DNA from: Planctomycetota bacterium
Lineage (GTDB): Bacteria > Planctomycetota > Planctomycetia > Pirellulales > Pirellulaceae
DNA: 37,568 nt
Direction: 5' to 3'
NCBI GenBank assembly: GCA_024276655.1
Contig: JAJRWU010000230.1
Span: 1 to 37,568 of the forward strand
The translations under genes were made by a program, and so were the position numbers. Shown piece after piece: positions 20,825-33,808 of the stretch (positions within the stretch are counted from its first letter, which is position 1; each line of letters begins with the position of its first letter). The notes under the pieces were generated by a model. That model made no database searches and was not told the origin of the DNA. It was given only the letters and a program-made list of their open reading frames with translations.

Positions 20825-20955
20825 GGGACGGGAATGCTGCAAGCGGGACGGGAATTCCGCTGCAAGCGGGACGGGAATTCCGCTGCAAGCGGGACGGGAA
20901 TGAATTCCGCTGCAAGCGGGACGGGAATGAATTCCGCTGCAAGCGGGACGGGAAT
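20825..20955 (+). repeat. Tandem repeat (about five 23-27 bp units) before fliG
   Basis: The unit GCTGCAAGCGGGACGGGAAT, followed by TCC or GAATTCC, occurs at 20836-20858, 20859-20881 (23 bp each), 20882-20908, 20909-20935 (27 bp each), and partly at 20936-20955. A truncated copy is at 20825-20835. The four extra bases in later units duplicate part of GAATTC. The array ends in the AAGGTGG that serves fliG as ribosome-binding site. Confidence 0.95.
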
Positions 20956-21986: not shown

Positions 21987-22772
21987 CTAGTCGCCAAACA
22001 AATTGCCCAAGCCTCCCAATACCGAACCTTCACCCTGCTTCGAGCCGCCGGTAGACGGGGCGTTGGCCAACACGCGGTCGGCCAGGCGCGAGAACGGCAG
22101 GCTCTGCAACAACACGGTTCCCGTGCCGCTGAGCGTCGCCAAAAAGAGCCCTTCCCCGCCGAAGAACATCGACTTCAAATTCCCAGCCCGGGCGATGTCA
22201 TAGCTGATCCCCTCGGTAAAGGCGACCAGGCAACCGGTGTCGACGCGTAGCGTTTCGTTGTTCAGTTGTTTTGTCACGACCGTACCGCCGGCGTGAATAA
22301 ATGTCATGCCGTCGCCGCTGAGCTTTTGCAGAATAAAGCCCTCTCCCCCAAAAAAACCGGCGCCCAGCCGCCGCTGGAATGCGATCGAAATGGATGTGCC
22401 CAGCGCCGCGCAAAGAAACGAATCTTTCTGGCAGGTGATCGTCCCGCCGACTTTCCCCAAGTCGAGCGGAATGATCTTGCCGGGAAACGGCGCCGCAAAA
22501 GCCACGCGGGATTTCCCCCGGCCATGATGCGTGAAGTGGGTCATGAAAACTGATTCGCCCGTCAAGACGCGTTTGCCAACACTCAGCATTTTCCCCAGAA
22601 AGCCTTCATCAGGGTTCGAGCCATCGCCCATTTTGGCTTCATACTGAATACCATCTTCCATGTAATTCATCGCCCCGGCTTCGGCCACCACCGTTTCGCC
22701 AGGATCTAGTTCGATCTCTACCAGTTGCATGTCGTCGCCGAAAATTTTGTAATCAATCTCGTGGCTTCGCAT
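21987..22772 (-). CDS. AIM24/TIGR00266 family protein
   Basis: 261 residues. It begins [32 protein letters not shown]-like sequence typical of the TIGR00266 (DUF124/AIM24) family, and carries two matching segments [14 protein letters not shown] and [14 protein letters not shown] that reflect the repeated beta-prism halves. The C-terminal tail is Gly-rich (GGLGNLFGD). The family is widespread, soluble and cytoplasmic, without a firmly established bacterial function. GGAGAA lies 5 bases before the ATG. It is a single gene, convergent with fliG. Confidence 0.9.
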
Positions 22773-23620: not shown

Positions 23621-24562
23621 ATGTTTTTGGATTTGTTTTGGCGGGGTGCGGTTATTTTTTGCTCCCTCGTGTGCGGTCTGCTCGGTGCGGCGCCGTTGCC
23701 GGCGCAAATGCCGGCGTCGAAAGAACCGACGATCTCGGAGCCGATTCGAAAACCCGGTTTGGCGGGAATCGAAAATGTAATCCAGTTATCGAGCAACATC
23801 TATTCCGGAGGCGAGCCGCATGGCGCGGCGGGATTTTCCAGCGTGGCGGCGTTGGGCGTCAAGACGATTGTGAGCGTCGACGGCGCCCGGCCCAATCTCG
23901 CCGCGGCGCATGCCGTTGGCTTGAAGTATGTTCACATACCGATCGGTTACGATGGCATCGCCGACGACGCGCGGCGCGCCCTTTCGCGTTTGGTGGGCCA
24001 GCGCCCAGGTCCATTCTATATTCACTGCCACCATGGCCGTCATCGAGGACCGGCCGCCGCGGCGGTTGCTTGTATTGCCTTGGGCGAGCAGAAATCGCCG
24101 TTTGCCTTGCGCGTGCTCCGCGCCGCGGGAACAAGCCGAAGTTATGTCGGCCTCTGGCGCGATGTCGTGGCCGATGCGCCGCCGAAGTCGGGGGCGCCTG
24201 CGCCGCCATTAGTCGAGGCGGCGCAGGTTCGTTCAATGGTCGCGGCGATGGCTGGGTCTGCACATACCATGGAGCGTCTGCAACTTGCTGAAACCGCTGG
24301 TTGGAAAACGCCGGCAGCGCATCCAGACGTATCGCCCGCGCATGAAGCCTTGCTGCTGCGAGAGTCGTTCCATGAAATGCGGCGGCTGCTCAAGGTTCGG
24401 CGCCCGGCGGAATTCGAGCAGCGTCTGGCGGAAGTGGAACAGCAAGCTCAAAAGTTGCAAAACGCGCTTGCCAGCGTGCGGCGAAAGGAAGCGACGGCCA
24501 TCAGGAAAAAAATCGAGCAAAAATGCCGCGCCTGCCACGTTCAATATCGAAACGGCTCCTGA
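23621..24562 (+). CDS. Exported tyrosine-phosphatase-like protein with C-terminal cytochrome c'-like CxxCH
   Basis: 313 residues. Residues 10-29 are a probable signal peptide ending near PLPAQ. Residues 50-185 resemble a dual-specificity/tyrosine phosphatase: IYSGGEPHG, VKTIVSVDGARP, VHIPIGYDGI, then the P-loop HCHHGRHR (135-142), which satisfies HCX5R with Cys136 and Arg142. After a Pro/Ala-rich linker, residues 245-310 are helical and charged and end KCRACHVQYR, with CxxCH at 302-306, as at the C-terminus of cytochrome c' or c556. It would act outside the cytoplasm with one covalent haem. GGGAG lies 7 bases before the ATG. The substrate is unknown. An alternative is that the phosphatase fold is a non-catalytic binding domain. 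Confidence 0.8.
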   Translation: MFLDLFWRGAVIFCSLVCGLLGAAPLPAQMPASKEPTISEPIRKPGLAGIENVIQLSSNIYSGGEPHGAAGFSSVAALGVKTIVSVDGARPNLAAAHAVGLKYVHIPIGYDGIADDARRALSRLVGQRPGPFYIHCHHGRHRGPAAAAVACIALGEQKSPFALRVLRAAGTSRSYVGLWRDVVADAPPKSGAPAPPLVEAAQVRSMVAAMAGSAHTMERLQLAETAGWKTPAAHPDVSPAHEALLLRESFHEMRRLLKVRRPAEFEQRLAEVEQQAQKLQNALASVRRKEATAIRKKIEQKCRACHVQYRNGS

Positions 24563-24613: not shown

Positions 24614-27600
24614 TCAGGCTGCATCGCTTTCGTCGGGCGAGCCGCCCTGGTTGGCTGTTGCGGAAAGAATTTCGCCTTCTTCGGTGACATCTTCAAACTT
24701 CACCGAAACCCGTTTCGAGACGCCCGATTCCTGCATCGTGACGCCGTGTAGCGTATTGGCGGCGGTCATTGTTTTCTTCGAGTGCGTGACGATGATGAAT
24801 TTCGTCCAGCCCAAAAATTCACGTAGTTGGTCGACGAAGCGGCCGATATTGGCTTCATCCAGCGGGCCGTCGACTTCATCCAGCACACAAAAAGGACTGG
24901 GCCGAAATTGAAAGATGGCCAGCAGCAGCGTGACCGCCGCCAACGCGCGTTCGCCGCCGCTCAACAGCGAAATACTCAACGCCTGTTTGCCGGGCGGCGT
25001 GGCGATGATATCCACGCCGCTCTCCAATATGTCGACCCCTTCCTCCAATACGATGTCGGCGTTGCCGCCGCCAAACACCTTGCGAAACAACACCTGGAAA
25101 TTGCCGCGCACCGTCTCTAATGTTTCCGCGAACAAGCGGCGGCTATCGCCATTGATGCGGGCGATGATTTTCTCCAGCGACTCCTTGGCGTCAAGCAGAT
25201 CTTGGTGCTGCGACGAAAGCAAGGAGAAACGCGCGTCCAACTCCTCGAGTTCGGCCAGCGCCTCCATGTTGACCGCGCCAATGCGGTTCAGCCGATTTCG
25301 CAAGTCGGCGATTTCCTGTTCGACTTCCAAGCGTTGTTCGCCGGCCGAGCCTTCCTCTTCCCGCAGCGTTTCCAGGTCGATGCCATAATCTTCCTTTAGG
25401 CGTTCGCTCATGGCCACGCGCTGCTGACGCGCCTGGTTGACCTCCAACTCAAATTGCAGCCGCTGGTCCTCCAACTTGCGGCGCTGTTCTCGCAACTGGC
25501 GCAACTGTGAGTTCACCTGCTCGCGCTGCGATACGGCGTCATCGGCCGCTCGCCCGATTTCCCTCGATTCGTGGTCCAGGCTTTCGTTATTCAGAAATAG
25601 TTCCGCCAACTCCGCTGAAGCCGCCAGAACCTCCAAGTCAAGCTGGCGGCGGCGGGCTTCGCAGCCAGCCAAGTGCTCTAGCGTTTCGCGAGCAGCCACC
25701 TCTCGTTCGCTCAAATCATGCGTGGTTTGCCGTTGTTGTTGCAGCAGGCTGGCCAAAATCTGCTCGCTACGGACCAACTCCACTTTCAACCGCACGCCTT
25801 GCTGCGCGTGCTCTGTTCGCTTTTCATCCAACTCCTCCAAATGGGCGTTTTGCTGTTCGAGTTCCGCCTCATACTGCCTCAGAGACTGCCGCGTGGCCGC
25901 CAGTTGAACGTTTGCCTCCTCCAATCGAGACGAACACTCGACAACTTTGGCAATAGCCGTTTCAAGACGTCCGCCGAGCGTCTCCTGTTGGGTGAACAAC
26001 TGTTTGACTTGTTCTTCAATGGCCGCCGTTCGCAAGCGAGCTTCGACAAGTTCGCCCTTTCGCTCGGCGAGCGTCTCTTCGCAACGCCGGACCTCCTCCC
26101 GCCCGGCTCCCGAAGCATCGGCCAACTCCGTCGTTTCCTGTTCCAGTTCCTCCAACGACAGCTCCAGCGATTCAAGCCCGCCGGCCAACTCCCGCAATTC
26201 ACTGCGACGAGAAATCAAACCAGAGGCCGCCTCTTTTGAACCCACCACCAGCGTGCCGTCGCGTTCGAGCAACTCTCCGGCAAGCGTGACGAACCGAGCG
26301 GCGCCGTTCGTTTCACGCGCGAGCGCGAATGCCGTTGCCAGAGTGTCGACGATCCAGGCGTCGGCCAACAGACGCACCGCCAAGTGATAATAGGGAAGCT
26401 CCGCTTCGACTAAGTGGTCGGCGCGAGCCACCACGCCGTCACGGCCTTCGAGTTGCAGCGGCGGCGAAACGGCTTCGCCCAAGAGCGAAATAAACCGCAC
26501 GCGGCCACGAATTTCCTGATCGAGTTGCGCGGCGAATTTTTCCACCGTGGCGCCGGCAATCACCACGCCTTGTGCTTTATCGCCGAGCGCGACGTCGATC
26601 AGCGCGGCGCTTTCAAACGGGGCGCGGAGCAAATCGGCCACCACTCCCCGAACGGTCGAGTTTTGAGAACGCTTCGCCGTTTCACTGAGAAACGTTTGCA
26701 CGCCGCTGCTGATGCCATCGAGTTGCTCCTCCAACTCTCGCAACACGGCGGCGCGCGCCCGGGCGCGGTGATGTTTCTCCCGCAGTAGCGAGAGTTTTTC
26801 GTCCATCGCCCGCGATTCACACTGCCTCTCGCTGAGGCGCTCCCGACCAGCTTGCAATGCCGCTTCGGCCGCCACGACGTCCGTGTCGCGATCATTTTCG
26901 GTGCGACGCGCGGCCTCCAACCGCGTTTGCAAGTCGGACTTTTCCCGCCGCAGGCGTTCTTGCTGCGTCTGGCAAAGTGTCACTGCATCCTGGGCGTCGA
27001 CCCTTTTGATTTCCTCCGCGTTCACCTGGCCGGCTAATTCGGCGGCTGTGCGCGTCTGTTTCAAATGCCGGCGGCGTTGCTCTTCATGCGTTTGGCGAAC
27101 CTTCTCGAAGGCGGTGGTCAGATTTTCCACCGACCGATCATGGCGTTCGACTTCGTCGCGCACCTTGTCGGCGGCGCGTTCGGCGGTTTCTACTTCCGCT
27201 ACAATTTCGGCGAGACGTTGCTGGAGGTCGGCGGTGCGTGAAATGGCGTCAAGGAATCTGCTCCGTTGCCGGACCACTTCGGCGTCTAATTCGTAGGCGC
27301 GCGAACGAGAGTGCTCCACGGTCGACGTACAGGCCGCGATTCGTTCTCGATGCCGGGCGACCTGCTGTTCGAGGCGGCGACGTTTTTCGACCGCCGCTTC
27401 CACCAGCGCCTCAATCGCGTGCAGCCGCTGCTCGCCTTGCTCGGCGTCCTCCTGGTGGGCGGCCAGCAGCGCATCGACTTCTTTTTTTTTCTCGGTGAAG
27501 GAATCGACGTGCTCGGTGAGTTGGCGCCAATCGGTCAGCCCGACCTGCGTTCTCAATTCTTGAAGACGATCTCGGTGCTCTTTGTAACGCTGGGCCTTGG

Positions 27601-28231
27601 TGGCTTGCGAGCGCACCGTTTTCAAGCGGTTCTCCACTTCCTCGACGATGTCGGTCAGCCGGAGCATGTTCTGATCGACCCGCTCCAAGCGGCGTTGCGC
27701 TTCGATTTTCTTGGCTTTGAAGCGGCTGATGCCGGCGGCTTCCTCGAAAATGGCGCGGCGGTCGCGGGGCGAGGCTTGCAGCAGCACATCGAGTTTTCCC
27801 TGCTCAATAATACTGTAGGAATCGGCGCCGACGCCCGAGCCGCGAAAGAGTTGCTTGATGTCTTTCAAGCGGCACGGCTGGCCGTTGATCAGGTATTCGC
27901 CCTCGCCGCCGCGATACACCCGCCGCGTGACGCGAATTTCCTCGGCGTCGTACAGCAAATGTTTATTGACGTTGTCGATCACCAAGGTGGCCTCGGCCAT
28001 GTTCAACATTTTCCGGCCGCCCGCCCCGCCGCCCTTGAAGATGACGTCCGACATCTCCTTGCCGCGGAGGCTCTTGACGCTCTGCTCGCCCAGCACCCAC
28101 TTAATGGCGTCGACGATATTCGACTTGCCGGAGCCGTTAGGCCCCACCACCACCGTAATTCCGGCGGGGAACTCAAAACGCGTTTTGTCGGCGAAGCTTT
28201 TGAAGCCGATCAATTCCAAGGCTTTGAGCAT
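24614..28231 (-). CDS. smc: Chromosome segregation protein SMC
   Basis: 1205 residues from the chosen ATG, whose product begins MLKALELIGFKSFADKTRFE, the canonical SMC N-terminus; a longer frame to 28297 adds 22 residues outside the conserved part. Walker A is GPNGSGKS (30-37). Long coiled coils run from about residue 170 to 500 and 670 to 1010, with a hinge between (around GVVADLLRAPFESAALIDVALG). The signature LSGGE is near 1090 and Walker B is FCVLDEVDGPLDEAN near 1114, slightly different from the common DEVDAALDDAN. SMC loops and organises the chromosome with ScpA/ScpB, which are not in the window. It is convergent with the phosphatase-like gene. Confidence 0.98.
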   Translation of the reverse strand: MLKALELIGFKSFADKTRFEFPAGITVVVGPNGSGKSNIVDAIKWVLGEQSVKSLRGKEMSDVIFKGGGAGGRKMLNMAEATLVIDNVNKHLLYDAEEIRVTRRVYRGGEGEYLINGQPCRLKDIKQLFRGSGVGADSYSIIEQGKLDVLLQASPRDRRAIFEEAAGISRFKAKKIEAQRRLERVDQNMLRLTDIVEEVENRLKTVRSQATKAQRYKEHRDRLQELRTQVGLTDWRQLTEHVDSFTEKKKEVDALLAAHQEDAEQGEQRLHAIEALVEAAVEKRRRLEQQVARHRERIAACTSTVEHSRSRAYELDAEVVRQRSRFLDAISRTADLQQRLAEIVAEVETAERAADKVRDEVERHDRSVENLTTAFEKVRQTHEEQRRRHLKQTRTAAELAGQVNAEEIKRVDAQDAVTLCQTQQERLRREKSDLQTRLEAARRTENDRDTDVVAAEAALQAGRERLSERQCESRAMDEKLSLLREKHHRARARAAVLRELEEQLDGISSGVQTFLSETAKRSQNSTVRGVVADLLRAPFESAALIDVALGDKAQGVVIAGATVEKFAAQLDQEIRGRVRFISLLGEAVSPPLQLEGRDGVVARADHLVEAELPYYHLAVRLLADAWIVDTLATAFALARETNGAARFVTLAGELLERDGTLVVGSKEAASGLISRRSELRELAGGLESLELSLEELEQETTELADASGAGREEVRRCEETLAERKGELVEARLRTAAIEEQVKQLFTQQETLGGRLETAIAKVVECSSRLEEANVQLAATRQSLRQYEAELEQQNAHLEELDEKRTEHAQQGVRLKVELVRSEQILASLLQQQRQTTHDLSEREVAARETLEHLAGCEARRRQLDLEVLAASAELAELFLNNESLDHESREIGRAADDAVSQREQVNSQLRQLREQRRKLEDQRLQFELEVNQARQQRVAMSERLKEDYGIDLETLREEEGSAGEQRLEVEQEIADLRNRLNRIGAVNMEALAELEELDARFSLLSSQHQDLLDAKESLEKIIARINGDSRRLFAETLETVRGNFQVLFRKVFGGGNADIVLEEGVDILESGVDIIATPPGKQALSISLLSGGERALAAVTLLLAIFQFRPSPFCVLDEVDGPLDEANIGRFVDQLREFLGWTKFIIVTHSKKTMTAANTLHGVTMQESGVSKRVSVKFEDVTEEGEILSATANQGGSPDESDAA

Positions 28232-28439
28232 AGGACCATGTCGTCGAAAAATCTCAGGTCGTGACACCTCAAGCAGCCGAAAATCGGCTCGTCGCATTCA
28301 AGGATGCAAATGCGCCCAACCCATGCCGCCCGAGGATTACAATCCTCCAGGATGACCGGTTTTGATCAAATTGGCAATGGCGATCAGGGAAGAAAACGCC
28401 AGAGCCAGAGCGCCAGCCGGGCGCCTTGCCGCACCCCGG

Positions 28440-31400
28440 CTAGGAGCAGTTCGCGCAAGCGGCGGTCTTTTCGGTAGGGGACTGGGAAATACAGTGCGAC
28501 TTCGTTCCCAAGAGGGCGTCGAGCTGTTCTTGCGGCGGTAGTTCGACAAACACCGCGCCGTCGACCACCTTGACCGGAAACACCTTGAGGGAGAAATCCT
28601 CGCCGGAGAGGCTGCCGCCGGTTTTCAGCGAGAACGGCTTTTTGTGCAGCGGGCAGGCCACTTTCGGTTCTTCGCCCACCGCGCCGATAATGCCCCGAGA
28701 AAGCACAAAAGCGTTTTTATGAGGACACATATTCTGGCAGGCGTACCACTCGGCCCGGCTGGCGAAATTGTAAACCGCGATCTGCACTTGCCCCACCTTG
28801 ATCGTGCTGCCGCCGTCGTGCGGAAAATCGGCCACCGGCCCCACTTCCACCCACCTTTTTCGCAGGCGGCCGTTATCGAGCGGCTTGGCCGCCCCGTTCA
28901 AGCTGCGGCCGTTTCCGTTGATTTTTCCAGACGCCTGGCCGTTGGTATGCCCATTCACGCCGCTGTTTGTTTTGCCGTTGGTTCGAGATGCTTCGGGAAG
29001 TGTTAATTGCACCAGAGGCTGGCCATCTTTCGGCCAATCGACCGGACGCCGTTGCCCGCGTTCGTCGACGAATTCGATCTCGGCTTGGTGGTCGTCGGTG
29101 TTGACGAACTGCCGGAACAGCTTTCGTTTCTCCGGGCTCTCCACCACCGCTTTCCATTCGCATTGGTAGGTATCGACCAAGTGCTGTATCCGCTGCTCCA
29201 ACTCAGTGCAAATACCGAGTTTATCGTCGATCACGACCTCCTTCAGGTGCTCCACGCCGCCGGCCATTTTCTCCAACCAAGCGGCGGTGCGGGTGAGTTT
29301 GTCGGCCGTGAAAATGTAGTACATCAAGAAACGATCGATGTAGCGAATGACGGTTTTTTGGTCGAGGTCGGTCGCCAGCAGATCGGCGTGCCGCGGTTTG
29401 GCGCCGCCGTTGCCGCACACAAACAAGTTGTAGCCGTGCTCCGTGGCGATCAGGCCGACGTCCTTGCATTGGGCTTCGGCGCACTCCCGCATACAACCAC
29501 TGACCGCCATTTTGATTTTGTGCGGCGCCCGAATGCCGCGATACCGCTCTTCAATTTGGATAGCGAACGCCACGCTGTTTTGCACGCCGTAACGGCACCA
29601 TGTCGAGCCGACGCAACTCTTCACCGTGCGCACCGATTTTCCGTAAGCGTGGCCGCTTTCAAATCCGGCGGCGATCAACTCCTCCCAAATATCGGGCAGT
29701 TGGTGTAACTGGGCGCCGAACAGGTCGATGCGTTGCCCGCCGGTAATTTTGGTGTAGAGGCCGTACTTGCCGCCCACGCGGCCCAGCGTGCTCAGTTTTT
29801 CCGGCGTGATTTCTCCGCCGGGCACGCGCGGCACCACGCTAAACAGCCCGCCCCGCTGCATGTTGGCCAGAAAACGGTCGTTCGTATCTTGCAGTGTATG
29901 ATGTTCGGAATCGACGATCGAATCATTCCAAAGGCTGGCCAGAATCGAGGCAACCACCGGCTTGCAAACTTCGCAGCCCGCCCCGCTGCCGTGCGAAGCC
30001 AGCAGCGCGGCGAATGTTTTTATCTCCTTGATTTTGATGATCTGGAACAGATCGGTGCGAGAATAGGGGAAGTGCTCGCACAGATGGTTGTTCAGTTCGA
30101 CGCCCGCCTTGCCCATTTCGGCGCGCAAAATATCGGTCACCAGCGGCAGACAACCGCCGCAGCCGGCGCCGGCTTGCGTGCAGGTTTTTAGTTCGCCGAC
30201 GCTCGTCAGGTTTTGCGATTTAATAGCCTCGCAAATGGCGCCCTTGCTGACATTATTACAACTGCACACTTGGGCGTCGTCGCTCATGGCTTCGGCGCCG
30301 CCCAGCGAAGCCGACACGCTGCCGCCCACGCCCATCAGTTCCGCCGGTGAACACGGCAGCAGCTCACCGCTCTTGGCGAACATCGACAAAGCGCCGTAGT
30401 CGGCGGCGTCGCCCACCAAGACGCCGCCCAACAGCCGCCGCCCAGAGTGGTCGAACAACAATTTCTTGTACACACCGGCAAAAGGATCTTCAAAAACCAA
30501 CGGCGCCGCGATATCCGGCCCAGCTTCATAATTGCCGAAACTCGCCACATCGACGCCCATCAGTTTGAGCTTGGTGGAAAGATCGGCGCCGTCGAACTTA
30601 CGATCTTCATCGCACAAATTCGCAGCCACGGCTTCGGCCATTTCGTAGCCGGGGGCTACGAGTCCATACACCATTCCCTGGTGCAGGGCGACTTCGCCAA
30701 TGGCGTAGATGTGGGGATCGGAGGTTTGCAAACGGTCGTTGACCGCCACGCCGCCACGCTCGCCGACGTCCAGCCCACATTCGCGAGCCAGTTCATCGCG
30801 GGGTCGGATGCCGGCCGACACAATAATCATATCGATCGGCAATCGTTCACCATCGGTGAACACCATCTCTTCCACACAATGTTCGCCGGTAATTTCCTGC
30901 GTGGCCTTGTTGAGGTGGACGCGCACGCCCAATTGTTCGATTTTACTAACCAACACGCGCGAACCGGCATCGTCCACTTGGCGCGGCATCAACCGGGGCG
31001 AGAACTCCACGACATGCGTTTCCAAATCAAGATCGAAGGCCGCCTTGGCCGCTTCCAAGCCAAGCAACCCGCCGCCAATCACGGCGCACCGCCGGGCCGT
31101 CTTCCCGTACTCAATGATCTTTTCCAAGTCGGCAATCGTGCGATACACGAACACGCCCCGCTTGCGAATGCCCTCCACCGGAGGCACGAAAGGATACGAG
31201 CCGGTGGCGAACACGGCGACATCGTATTCGATTTCTCCGTTTTGCTCCGAGGTGATGATTTGCTTTTGGCGATCGATTTTGTCGGCCCGATCACCAATAT
31301 GTAGTTCGACGCCGTTCTCCCGATACCAATCGAGCCGGGCGAGCATCAGTTTTTCCGCATCGCGATGGGCGAAGAACGACGTCAGCCCGACGCGGTCGTA

Positions 31401-31538
31401 GGCGGCGCGGGGCTCTTCGCAAAACGTCACGATCCTGTAACGCTGCTGCTGATCGAATTCGATCATTTTCTCCACGAAGCGGTGCCCGACCATGCCATTG
31501 CCGATCACGACCACGGTTTTTTTTCTGGACTCTGACAT
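28440..31538 (-). CDS. nirB: Nitrite reductase large subunit NirB with fused C-terminal Rieske (NirD-like) domain
   Basis: 1032 residues from ATG 31538, which has GAGGAAA 7-8 bases ahead; an upstream frame start at 31568 would overlap nasA. Domains in order: FAD site VVVIGNGMVGHRF, NAD(P)H site CAVIGGGLLGLEAA, FAD-binding DPHIYAIGEVAL; [2Fe-2S] BFD-like cysteines in CSCNNVSKG and GAGCGGCLP; the sirohaem/[4Fe-4S] half with CVGSTWC and SGCMRECAEA; an Asn/Gly-rich linker (about residues 870-905); and a Rieske domain with CPHK and CPLHK. It reduces nitrite to ammonium with six electrons from NAD(P)H in the cytoplasm. Fusion with NirD is less common than separate genes. The tail ends ACANCS. It is last of dmsBC-nasA-nirB. 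Confidence 0.96.
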   Translation of the reverse strand: MSESRKKTVVVIGNGMVGHRFVEKMIEFDQQQRYRIVTFCEEPRAAYDRVGLTSFFAHRDAEKLMLARLDWYRENGVELHIGDRADKIDRQKQIITSEQNGEIEYDVAVFATGSYPFVPPVEGIRKRGVFVYRTIADLEKIIEYGKTARRCAVIGGGLLGLEAAKAAFDLDLETHVVEFSPRLMPRQVDDAGSRVLVSKIEQLGVRVHLNKATQEITGEHCVEEMVFTDGERLPIDMIIVSAGIRPRDELARECGLDVGERGGVAVNDRLQTSDPHIYAIGEVALHQGMVYGLVAPGYEMAEAVAANLCDEDRKFDGADLSTKLKLMGVDVASFGNYEAGPDIAAPLVFEDPFAGVYKKLLFDHSGRRLLGGVLVGDAADYGALSMFAKSGELLPCSPAELMGVGGSVSASLGGAEAMSDDAQVCSCNNVSKGAICEAIKSQNLTSVGELKTCTQAGAGCGGCLPLVTDILRAEMGKAGVELNNHLCEHFPYSRTDLFQIIKIKEIKTFAALLASHGSGAGCEVCKPVVASILASLWNDSIVDSEHHTLQDTNDRFLANMQRGGLFSVVPRVPGGEITPEKLSTLGRVGGKYGLYTKITGGQRIDLFGAQLHQLPDIWEELIAAGFESGHAYGKSVRTVKSCVGSTWCRYGVQNSVAFAIQIEERYRGIRAPHKIKMAVSGCMRECAEAQCKDVGLIATEHGYNLFVCGNGGAKPRHADLLATDLDQKTVIRYIDRFLMYYIFTADKLTRTAAWLEKMAGGVEHLKEVVIDDKLGICTELEQRIQHLVDTYQCEWKAVVESPEKRKLFRQFVNTDDHQAEIEFVDERGQRRPVDWPKDGQPLVQLTLPEASRTNGKTNSGVNGHTNGQASGKINGNGRSLNGAAKPLDNGRLRKRWVEVGPVADFPHDGGSTIKVGQVQIAVYNFASRAEWYACQNMCPHKNAFVLSRGIIGAVGEEPKVACPLHKKPFSLKTGGSLSGEDFSLKVFPVKVVDGAVFVELPPQEQLDALLGTKSHCISQSPTEKTAACANCS

Positions 31539-31552
31539 TCCTTTTGCTTTCC

Positions 31553-33808
31553 TCAGACGTCGTCCCAAGACTCCGCGCGGCGCACGCGCACGGCACAGTC
31601 TTTGTACGAGGGTTGTTTTGAATGGGGGTCGAAGTGGGCGTGCGTCAACTGGTTGGTCTGCTCGAAATGCATGGGGATAAACACCTGCCCCTCTTGGACC
31701 GTTGGCGTGACAAACACCTTCGCGCGAATGCGGCCGCGCTGCGATTCAACAATCGCCTCTTGGTTAGGACGCAGCCCTTCGCGGCGGGCGTCTTGAGGAT
31801 GGATTTCCACGTACGCCTGTTGCGGCGCCAACTCACGCAGCACCGCCGAGCAAGCGGTGCGGGTTTGGGTGTGCCACTGCGCGGCGGCGCCCCGCCCGGT
31901 GAGCAGCAGGTACGGATAACGCTTGTTGGGCGGCTCCGGCATGGCGCGCGGCGTTTCAAAAATGAAGCGGGCGCGGCCATCGGCATGATAAAACTTGCCG
32001 TCTTCAAATAGTCGGCGGTGCGTATGGTTTTTGTCGTTATCGGCGCCGCCCTCTTCAGGATACGGCCATTGAATGCCGCCGCGTTGGTCGAGCATTTGGT
32101 AATCGGCAATGCCGCTGATGTCGCACGGTCGGCCGCGCGAAAGCTCCTTGAGTTTGTGGAATACCGCTTCGGGGTCGGTCCAATCGGCGAACATGCGTCC
32201 GCAGCCCCAGTATTCGGCGATCAGTCGAAAGATGGAAAAGTCGGCCAGGGCTTGCCCCGGCGCGCGAACCACTTTTTTGATCACTCCCACGCGGCGTTCG
32301 GAATTGATGAAGGTGCCGTCTTTTTCGCCCCAGCCCGCCGCCGGCAAATAGAGATCGGCCAGTTGCGCCGTTTCGGTGTTGGAGTACATATCTTGCACGA
32401 CGAGAAAATCGAGGCGGTCGAGAATATCGCGGCAAGTGTTTTGGTTGATCCAGGAGTGAGCCGTGTTGGTGCAGACCACCCACAGCCCCTTGATTTTGTC
32501 GCGTAGAATGCCTTCCAGAATTTCGTTGTACGACCAGCTTGGGCGGTCGGGAATGCAGGCGGCGTCGATCCCCAGAATGTCGGCAACCTGCCCGCGATCT
32601 TGGGCCGATTCAAAATCGCGTCCGCCGAGCAGATTGGTCGTGTTGCTGAACAGACGCGAACCCATGGCGTTGCACTGGCCGGTGATGGAGTTGGCGCCGG
32701 CGCCGGCGCGGCCGATATTACCAGTCATCAGCGCCAAATTGATAATGGCTTGCGCCGTGCGCACGCCTTCATAACTTTGGTTGACGCCCATCGTCCACCA
32801 GAACGACACGCGTTTTCCGGCGTGAATGATATTGGCGATGCGGTGGAGCTGTGCGGCGCTGATACCGCTGGCTTCCGCCACGCGCTGGGGTGTGAACTCC
32901 GCCACATGCGCGCAAAAATCATCAAAGCCGGAAGTGTGCGCTGCGATGTACTTGCGGTCGAGCCAATCTTCCGCAATGAGAATGTGCGCCAGGCCATAGA
33001 GCAGCGCCAAATCCGACTTGGGCCGCAACGCCAGATGCTCCGTGGCCGCCATCGCGGTTTCCGTTTTGCGAGGATCGACCACAATGATTTCCGGCCGGTG
33101 AGGATTCTTCAGCACCCGTTGCCACATGATCGGGTGGGCGATGCAGAGGTTCGATCCGATCAGTACGATGACGTCCGACTGTTCAAAATCTTGGTAGGTG
33201 TAGGGCGGGGCGTCGAAACCGAAAGCTTGCTTGTAGGCCACCACCGCCGAGGCCATGCATTGCCGCGTGTTGCCATCGCCATGCACCATGCCCATGCCGA
33301 ACTTGGCCAGCGCGCCGAGAAAGGCCATTTCTTCCGTGGGCATTTGCCCGGTGCTCAAGAAGGCCACCGATTCGACGCCGTGGCGGGCTTGCGTTTCTTG
33401 CAGACGGTCGCGAAACGCGGCCATCGCCTCCGGCCAGGAAACGGGCGCCAATTTCCCTCGCCCGTTGCGTAACAGCGGCGTCGTTCCACGGCCGCTCGAT
33501 TTGAGCACCGAAAGCGATTCCCAGCCCTTGGGGCAGGCCATGCCGCTGTTCACGGGGTAGTCGACGGTCGGCGTGAGATTGATCGCCTGGCCATCGCGGA
33601 GGTGGATGTTCAAACTACAGCCGGTCGCGCAGAATCCACAAACCATTTGCGTGGTGGCGTTGGGTGTTTTGCCGGCGGGAAGGCGTCCCAAACCGAACTT
33701 ACCCGGCTGCTGGACCAAGTCGTGCGTTAAGGGCCCGTTCTCAGACCGCCACAACTTGGCCGCCGCTTGCCGAACCGCGTCTGCTTGTTGTTGCATGTTC
33801 GTGCTCAT
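31553..33808 (-). CDS. nasA: Assimilatory nitrate reductase catalytic subunit (molybdopterin, NasA/NarB type)
   Basis: 751 residues. The start ATG at 33808 overlaps the stop of the upstream gene by four bases (ATGA); the open frame runs on to 34426 but that part shadows the neighbouring gene. A [4Fe-4S] motif lies at CGFCATGC plus a fourth Cys in GMACPKG (Cys57, 60, 64, 92). Molybdopterin-domain segments include [35 protein letters not shown] and [20 protein letters not shown]. The C-terminal dinucleotide-binding domain has [13 protein letters not shown]. There is no Tat signal, so it is cytoplasmic and reduces nitrate to nitrite. It lacks the C-terminal BFD domain found in some NasA proteins. 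It is coupled to dmsBC and starts 14 bases before nirB. Confidence 0.95.

Follow-up and report, generated by a model that had tools for sequence, protein, structure and literature searches.

An exported planctomycetal protein joining a phosphatase-type fold to a class II cytochrome c domain

The gene and its protein

The stretch of planctomycetal DNA analysed here (the window, 37,568 nucleotides) carries on its forward strand a coding sequence (CDS) that opens with ATG at position 23621 and closes with a stop codon at 24562, and whose 313-residue product joins a phosphatase-type fold to a haem c domain (Table 1). An initial annotation, made from the letters of the DNA, had placed this reading frame here, with an HCHHGRHR loop at residues 135–142 and a CRACH motif at residues 302–306, and all of these were found exactly as claimed. 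The signal peptide that it proposed also agrees with inspection of the N-terminus, which is hydrophobic and signal-like. The 313-residue frame is the conserved protein; overlapping frames over the same stretch, the longest being 217 residues at 23638–24291 (plus strand) and 134 residues on the minus strand, are expected in DNA this rich in G+C. The gene stands alone, with both flanking genes on the opposite strand.

Table 1. Positions in the window of the coding sequence, of the parts of its product, and of the flanking genes (PTP, protein tyrosine phosphatase)
Feature	Position	Strand	Basis or comment
CDS, PTP-fold and haem c protein, 313 residues	23621..24562	+	Open reading frame; homologues
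Export-signal-like N-terminus, residues 1–28	23621..23704	+	Sequence inspection; crude scan of homologues
Phosphatase-fold domain, residues ~47–191	23759..24193	+	AlphaFold2 model; TpbA, VHZ and DUF442 structure matches; profile match
Asp111, candidate general acid	23951..23953	+	57/68 sequences; opposite TpbA Asp105 in alignment
P-loop HCHHGRHR, residues 135–142	24023..24046	+	Sequence reading; family alignment
Gly143, directly after the P-loop Arg	24047..24049	+	Ser/Thr in most Cys-phosphatases; in the family Gly 45, Ser 20, Ala 3 of 68
Four-helix haem domain, residues ~205–311	24233..24553	+	AlphaFold2, VIA-align; Pfam Cytochrom_C_2 at 261–310
Met210, proposed sixth haem ligand	24248..24250	+	Invariant, 68/68; placement by structure ranges
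CRACH haem-attachment motif, residues 302–306	24524..24538	+	Sequence and alignment; His306 presumed proximal ligand
Arg310, four residues past His306	24548..24550	+	Invariant, 68/68
AIM24 gene	21987..22772	-	Flanks the CDS
SMC gene	24614..28297	-	Flanks the CDS

A conserved planctomycetal family

Homologues were collected from 60 genomes, including the one that carries the window (27 with a match), from a contig search (16 loci), and from 392 genomes of the source phylum, judged to be Planctomycetota. The domain pair named in the initial annotation recurs across this phylum: 176 of the 392 sampled genomes had a match of some kind at 1e-10, and by hand count at least 131 of them contained at least 132 full-length matches, full length meaning that the match reaches position 269 or beyond of the 273-position profile. 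The 101 full-length frames used for comparison were picked by profile coverage, not by motif, and 68 sequences, which include the window's own protein and some near copies, were left after copies with identical last 150 residues had been dropped. By a crude motif scan, 53 of these 68 have signal-like starts (19 with a lipobox and 34 without), and in the other 15 nothing was found.

Residues Pro107, Tyr110, Cys136, Gly139, Arg142, Met210, Cys302, Cys305, His306, and Arg310 are invariant in the 68 sequences. His135, His105, and His141 are each present in 67, His137, His138, and Asp87 each in 66, and Asp111 in 57. When the set was reduced to 33 representatives with less than 50% identity, the active-site and haem residues invariant in the full set stayed at 33/33, while His137 and His138 were kept in 31 and Asp111 in 26, and the residue after Arg142 was Gly in 26, Ser in 4, and Ala in 3. 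Because the key residues of both motifs are invariant across 68 distinct sequences, the co-occurrence of the two motifs is not a product of chance but lies far beyond it.

In one bacterial family, represented by mostly small assemblies (1.8–5.7 Mb), the phosphatase half was matched in 23 of 26 genomes, and in 22 of these the match reached the haem end (hand count). Three closely related copies (L042, L043, and L044) come from contigs labelled Verrucomicrobiales or Akkermansia; they form one clade in the tree described below, and mis-binning or transfer is their likely source. Since only 2 of 288 genomes from the phylum of the L042 genome (labelled Verrucomicrobiales) match at 1e-25, one of them being the L042 genome itself, the family is in essence confined to planctomycetes, apart from a few strays or mis-binned contigs.

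The phosphatase-fold half

The window protein matches Y_phosphatase2 of Pfam at 19.8 bits, below the cut-off of 27, and two other Pfam tyrosine phosphatase families, PTP-SAK and Tc-R-P, are matched at sub-threshold level as well. A single-sequence comparison with the PDB led to TpbA (E 1e-4, over residues 11–158), and a 17-row profile reached the TpbA chains 2m3v (1.7e-10; identified as TpbA in PMC4409338) and 4r0s (1.5e-9). AlphaFold2, given 17 sequences as input, returned five models with mean predicted local distance difference test (pLDDT) values from 76.4 to 87.9; the best, ahead of others at 76.4 to 87.2, had a pLDDT of 87.9 and a predicted template-modelling score of 0.79, and 28 is added to its numbering to give that of the full-length protein. 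Strands and helices up to about model residue 155 make up a first domain. Foldseek ranked TpbA first (E 1.4e-5, about 20% identity) and a DUF442 protein second, and its best 50 matches were all of phosphatase type, cytochromes appearing only among the VIA-align matches. For the first domain, VIA-align gave DUSP23/VHZ at Z 15.5 (140 residues aligned, root-mean-square deviation 2.6), TpbA at Z 15.0 (154 aligned, 3.4), and the DUF442 protein 3gxh at Z 14.8. Together, these comparisons support a dual-specificity phosphatase (DSP)-type alpha/beta fold, similar to TpbA and VHZ, for the modelled N-terminal half. The initial annotation had made its proposal depend on a phosphatase fold around residues 50–185 and on conservation of Cys136, Arg142, and the CxxCH residues; the fold is predicted, and these residues are present in 68 of 68 sequences.

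The HCX5R signature of Cys-based phosphatases is present throughout, with Cys and Arg in 68/68 and the preceding His in 67/68, and it suggests phosphatase chemistry for the Cys136 loop. Variant loops include HCHQGRHR (in L107) and HCFHGKHR (in L112). Asp111, the candidate general acid, aligns with TpbA Asp105, for which the same role has been proposed (PMC4409338).

The positions that follow the loop set the family apart from most Cys-phosphatases. A Ser or Thr after the P-loop Arg is the usual, though not universal, rule (PRL enzymes do without it), and the window protein departs from it with Gly143. The next position is Pro or Ala in 68/68 (Pro in 64), and Thr-Gly never follows the Arg, whereas 13 of 15 phosphatase homologues not linked to a haem domain have R-T-G there; of the other two, L144 is without the motif, and in L141 it is followed by R-C-G in its place. 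PRL enzymes have R-A-P after the loop. Ala in the PRL P-loop makes the phosphocysteine last for more than 1 hour, and Ser raises its hydrolysis more than 15-fold (PMC12192612); because of this effect, it is by analogy a real possibility that the Gly and Ala members of the family turn over slowly or stay in a long-lived covalent state. Carried to its end, the analogy would make the protein a pseudo-phosphatase, in which slow release of phosphocysteine turns the domain into a binding or sensing module and the haem reports or sets the state of Cys136. PRL structures do occur among the VIA-align matches (Z 13.7–14.2), but the gene neighbourhoods described below suggest no partner protein to be bound, and we regard this explanation as quite improbable.

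The haem half

Cytochrom_C_2 (PF01322) matches residues 261–310 of the window protein at 26.5 bits, equal to its cut-off of 26.5, and 15 of 17 aligned members at E 0.01. Against the PDB, the 17-row profile found cytochrome c' at 2.4e-5, and also b562 and small Kuenenia cytochromes; for the haem half, profile matches were 2.2e-7 for cytochrome c' and 3e-5 for b562. In the AlphaFold2 model, helices 177–197, 211–228, 235–256, and 260–283 (model numbering) form a four-helix bundle. VIA-align matched this second domain with b562-type proteins, Kuenenia cytochromes, and cytochromes c', at Z 13.6–14.5 among the matches listed, several of the b562 structures being BRIL fusion partners within receptor structures. 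Since helical bundles reach Z values of about 13 in VIA-align without kinship, the assignment of the second domain rests equally on the CxxCH motif and on the sequence profiles. The combined evidence supports a class II cytochrome c domain with a four-helix, cytochrome c'-like fold, so the cytochrome c'-like tail of the initial annotation stands as far as the fold is concerned; a gas-binding haem, also part of that claim, is disfavoured by the invariant Met210.

Among the 68 sequences, Met210 is the only haem-domain residue at 90% identity or more besides the CxxCH motif residues and Arg310. VIA-align lays model residues 176–282 onto residues 1–106 of b562, and model residues 175–285 onto residues 25–131 of the Kuenenia cytochromes; if helix A is ungapped, Met210 (model Met182) falls on residue 7 of the former and on residue 32 of the latter. 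Met7 of b562 is a haem ligand, and residue 32 is the mutated position in Kuenenia PDB entries titled C32G and C32M/C101M, the titles of these mutant entries being the ground on which it is taken as a ligand site. The portion of PMC8388095 available does not state the ligating residue of the Kuenenia NaxLS haem. A Met in helix A and a His in helix D, the pair expected of a c-556/b562-type His/Met cytochrome, are both present and invariant. Judged from the alignment and the model, six-coordinate His/Met ligation of the haem by His306 and Met210 is likely. Because an invariant Met is predicted at the distal ligand position, an electron-transfer role would be likelier than an open gas-binding site.

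The initial annotation had also suggested a phosphatase sensitive to redox state or to nitric oxide (NO) or carbon monoxide (CO); gas sensing would take place at an open cytochrome c'-type site. Cytochromes c' are indeed what the C-terminal half matches best in Pfam and, by sequence, in the PDB, and a 2026 preprint (PMC12889525) describes NO sensing by a c-type haem domain whose coordination environment is labile. However, Met210, which structure ranges place at the distal ligand site, is invariant in 68/68 fused sequences and in 3/3 of the split partners described below, and no NO-metabolism family figures in the 25 most frequent of the 93 neighbour families. Gas sensing has consequently been lowered to a very unlikely explanation, while the redox form of the same proposal is retained as the best reading.

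Covalent loading of haem at CRACH is predicted from the motif. The genome that carries the window encodes a cytochrome c assembly protein (94.1 bits against a Pfam cut-off of 29.9). It also encodes a second class II cytochrome c with PF01322 above cut-off (L120:655-1656, contig C285), a 333-residue protein with CDECH near its C-terminus, in which no HCX5R loop was seen.

Relatives in which the two halves are separate genes

Five near relatives were matched over the phosphatase half or slightly beyond. Two of them (L104 and L105) run off contig ends; in the other three (L096, L097, and L098), the phosphatase frame closes with a normal stop, and a separate haem protein is encoded directly downstream on the same strand. 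With starts as read, the haem gene overlaps the phosphatase stop in L097 and follows within about 90 bases in L096 and L098. Each of the three haem proteins has a signal-like start of its own, the Met, and a C-terminal CxxCH. When they were aligned with 25 fused haem domains from the set of 68, the Met, both Cys, and the His were present in each of the three (the Met210 position is thus Met in 28/28), while the Arg310 position is Arg in two and Lys in the third; of the three, two are recognised by the family profile. Partial matches G253 and G249, which extend to profile positions 248 and 242, were left out of this comparison.

The control group consisted of 15 phosphatase homologues at greater distance, inspected for a same-strand frame with a C-terminal CxxCH ending within 1.6 kb of the phosphatase stop. 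There was none in 15, although just 465 bases remain to the contig end in one of them (L137). Further split pairs were sought in the classes of two split-form genomes, and none were added: 9 of 12 genomes matched in the class of G201 (8 at full length, 1 being the known split form), and 1 of 2 in the class of G060 (the known split form).

A tree of the phosphatase domain was built from 85 rows, with L144, which lacks the Cys motif, left out. One branch (98/97) sets the 68 fused forms apart, another (100/99) does so for 14 unlinked homologues, and the three split forms lie between the two; the tree has few columns, its bootstrap is unsettled, and the branches of the split forms are long. The pairing, fused or split, is present in all members of the clade whose loci were read to the end. 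Because the split relatives keep the haem gene next door, and given the tree, the pairing is evidently functional, the phosphatase and haem halves working together. The simplest history, in which a two-gene pair came first and a single fusion later, is likely.

Neighbouring genes and additional domains

Neighbours were read at 46 loci, of which 41 were used, without the duplicates or near copies L030, L038, L044, L064, and L065. The next gene on each side was taken, together with the one beyond it where the strand was the same; proteins shorter than 110 residues were dropped and long ones cut at 340 residues, which gave 106 proteins. The commonest families, among the best 25 of 93, are Sulfatase, AhpC-TSA, and Redoxin, with 3 each of the 106. 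Gene neighbourhood was dropped as a clue to function, since the neighbours have little in common, and no partner is claimed.

One minor explanation takes the protein for an ordinary exported phosphatase, whose haem bundle serves only for structure or dimerisation. Dimers are common among four-helix class II cytochromes, and the neighbourhoods give no redox partner, with AhpC-TSA and Redoxin (possibly the same proteins) at 3 of 106. A structural role would not, however, account for the pattern of conservation in the haem domain, where both Cys, the His, the Met, and the Arg are invariant in 68/68 and no other residue reaches 90%, nor for the separate haem protein kept adjoining in the three split forms. 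We hold it to be the least probable of the explanations weighed.

A scan for third domains covered 8 of the 19 frames of at least 420 residues, and each of the three arrangements noted was found once. In L035:7896-9254, the frame runs on from the pair into a complete methionine sulfoxide reductase B (MsrB) domain (SelR, E 8.6e-48), with a possible in-frame Met start; this fusion is a lead only. L040:6099-8798 is a 900-residue frame in which domains resembling 3-keto-disaccharide hydrolase and GDSL esterase precede the pair, and L109:8482-10473 (minus strand) has a sodium/calcium exchanger ahead of the pair in the same frame.

The MsrB extension bears on a more serious alternative, a haem oxidoreductase in which Cys136 would take up sulfane sulfur or an oxyanion as a covalent adduct, and the His/Met haem would pass the electrons on to the respiratory chain. 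The fold is shared by DUF442 proteins, whose structural score is tied (Z 14.8 for 3gxh), and thiosulfate sulfur transferase activity has been demonstrated for the DUF442 domain of Blh (PMC5823870). NCBIfam Blh is weakly matched by 15 of 17 aligned members (best 1.8e-5), and the residue after the P-loop Arg is other than Ser or Thr in 48/68. Besides L035, sulfatases recurring within 10 kb in a few loci are in its favour, a point tempered by the abundance of sulfatase genes in this phylum. On the other hand, the loop is of the phosphatase-type HCX5R, with the preceding His in 67/68; the window protein scores far below the NCBIfam cut-offs (16.5 against 85.85 bits for TIGR01244 and 17.6 against 625 for Blh); the 25 most frequent neighbour families, of 93, include no recognised sulfur-oxidation family; and a protein covering all three parts of L035 was found in 1 of the 26 genomes of its family. 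A sulfur or oxyanion redox enzyme on the same fold is the main rival to the redox-coupled phosphatase set out below, although we consider it unlikely.

Elsewhere in the window, a tandem repeat with a 27-base unit, present in 4.7 copies with 95% matches, at 20836–20955 lies just ahead of the fliG start (20967). A large nitrite-reductase-like protein with a C-terminal Rieske domain, in effect NirB fused to a NirD-like part, is encoded at 28443–31568 on the minus strand.

Proposed function

The best single reading, which we hold tentatively and at nearly an even chance, is a redox-coupled periplasmic Cys-phosphatase. The protein would be exported and consist of a TpbA-like Cys-phosphatase fold and a class II (c-556/b562-like) four-helix cytochrome. 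The loop H-C136-H-H-G-x-H-R142 would bind an oxyanion, most likely a phosphoester, for attack by Cys136, with Asp111 as the probable general acid. Haem c would be held covalently by Cys302 and Cys305, ligated by His306 and probably by Met210, and would exchange electrons rather than bind gases. Tied to the phosphatase by fusion, or as an adjacent subunit, the haem could couple its state to the periplasmic electron chain, and electron exchange between the haem and the Cys136 thiolate or oxidised thiol, or else a redox-driven change of contacts, could switch or restore activity. Haem loading, ligation by Met, phosphatase chemistry, redox gating, and the substrate are what we infer. Oxidation is known to switch off Cys-based phosphatases, but no example that contains its own electron carrier is known to us.

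Several observations weigh against this reading. On the side of catalysis, Asp111 is missing in 11 of 68 sequences; the P-loop Arg is followed by Gly, Ser, or Ala, at a position where Ser or Thr usually speeds release of the phosphocysteine, and Thr was never seen there in the 68; and the diverged member L109 has a degenerate P-loop, TCETGRDR, in which the Cys and Arg are still kept. On the side of the haem, VIA-align supplies range ends only, so the placement of Met210 assumes an ungapped helix A, and the HMMER alignment with b562 starts at residue 8, its ungapped extension putting Met210 opposite residue 4, which would be one helical turn off Met7. A one-electron haem is, in addition, an awkward partner for two-electron thiol chemistry. 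Finally, the neighbours suggest no phosphorylated partner: the top Pfam families each account for at most 3 of the 106 proteins, and the widest neighbour cluster (within about 10 kb), of which the three scanned members are sulfatases, occurs in 7 of 37 loci, window included, with L040 and L065 representing the same place.

More broadly, the family may represent a new class of periplasmic enzyme, in which a catalytic phosphatase-fold Cys is connected to a His/Met haem c, at first between the products of two paired genes and later within a fused protein, and the state of electron transport in the envelope directly controls, or is fed by, HCX5R chemistry; we advance this proposal with slightly more reserve, as one that falls somewhat short of an even chance. 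No description of a phosphatase and haem pairing was found in the literature searched, of which coverage was partial, and the novelty of the pairing is not proven. If true, the proposal would mean that a protein ties respiration directly to exported phosphate (or sulfur) chemistry, in a phylum about whose signalling and envelope biology little is understood. As some relatives encode the two halves in separate genes, the coupling can be tested on the individual parts.

Comparison with known systems

The closest known protein is TpbA (PA3885; PDB entries 4r0s, 4r0t, and 2m3v), a periplasmic dual-specificity phosphatase of Pseudomonas aeruginosa, which has in common with the window protein the fold, a signal-like start, the HC-x-H-G-x-x-R loop, and the Asp position. 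In contrast to the window protein, to which it is about 20% identical, TpbA is without a haem domain and has R-T-G after the loop; the extra haem domain in 68/68 full-length sequences speaks against orthology with this single-domain DSP. The PRL (PTP4A) enzymes share the fold and likewise have no Thr after the P-loop Arg; the present family differs in being exported and in having Ser after the Arg in 20 of 68 members, and PRL phosphatases are not known to carry haem. Inositol pyrophosphate phosphatases of the Siw14/plant PFA-DSP group (6byf, 7mol, and 1xri; Z 13.7–13.9) are alike in the G-K-H-R half of the loop, as seen in the 1xri alignment, and are cytosolic enzymes not known to contain haem. 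The DUF442/Blh sulfur transferase domain (3gxg, 3gxh; TIGR01244) shares the fold with a tied structural score, whereas the present family scores far under its cut-off, has a phosphatase-type His before the Cys, and lacks the dioxygenase domain. With the class II cytochromes (c'/c-556, PF01322; b562), the haem half shares the four-helix bundle and the C-terminal CxxCHxxxR, but here the domain is fused to a phosphatase fold and, unlike the open site of cytochrome c', has an invariant Met in helix A.
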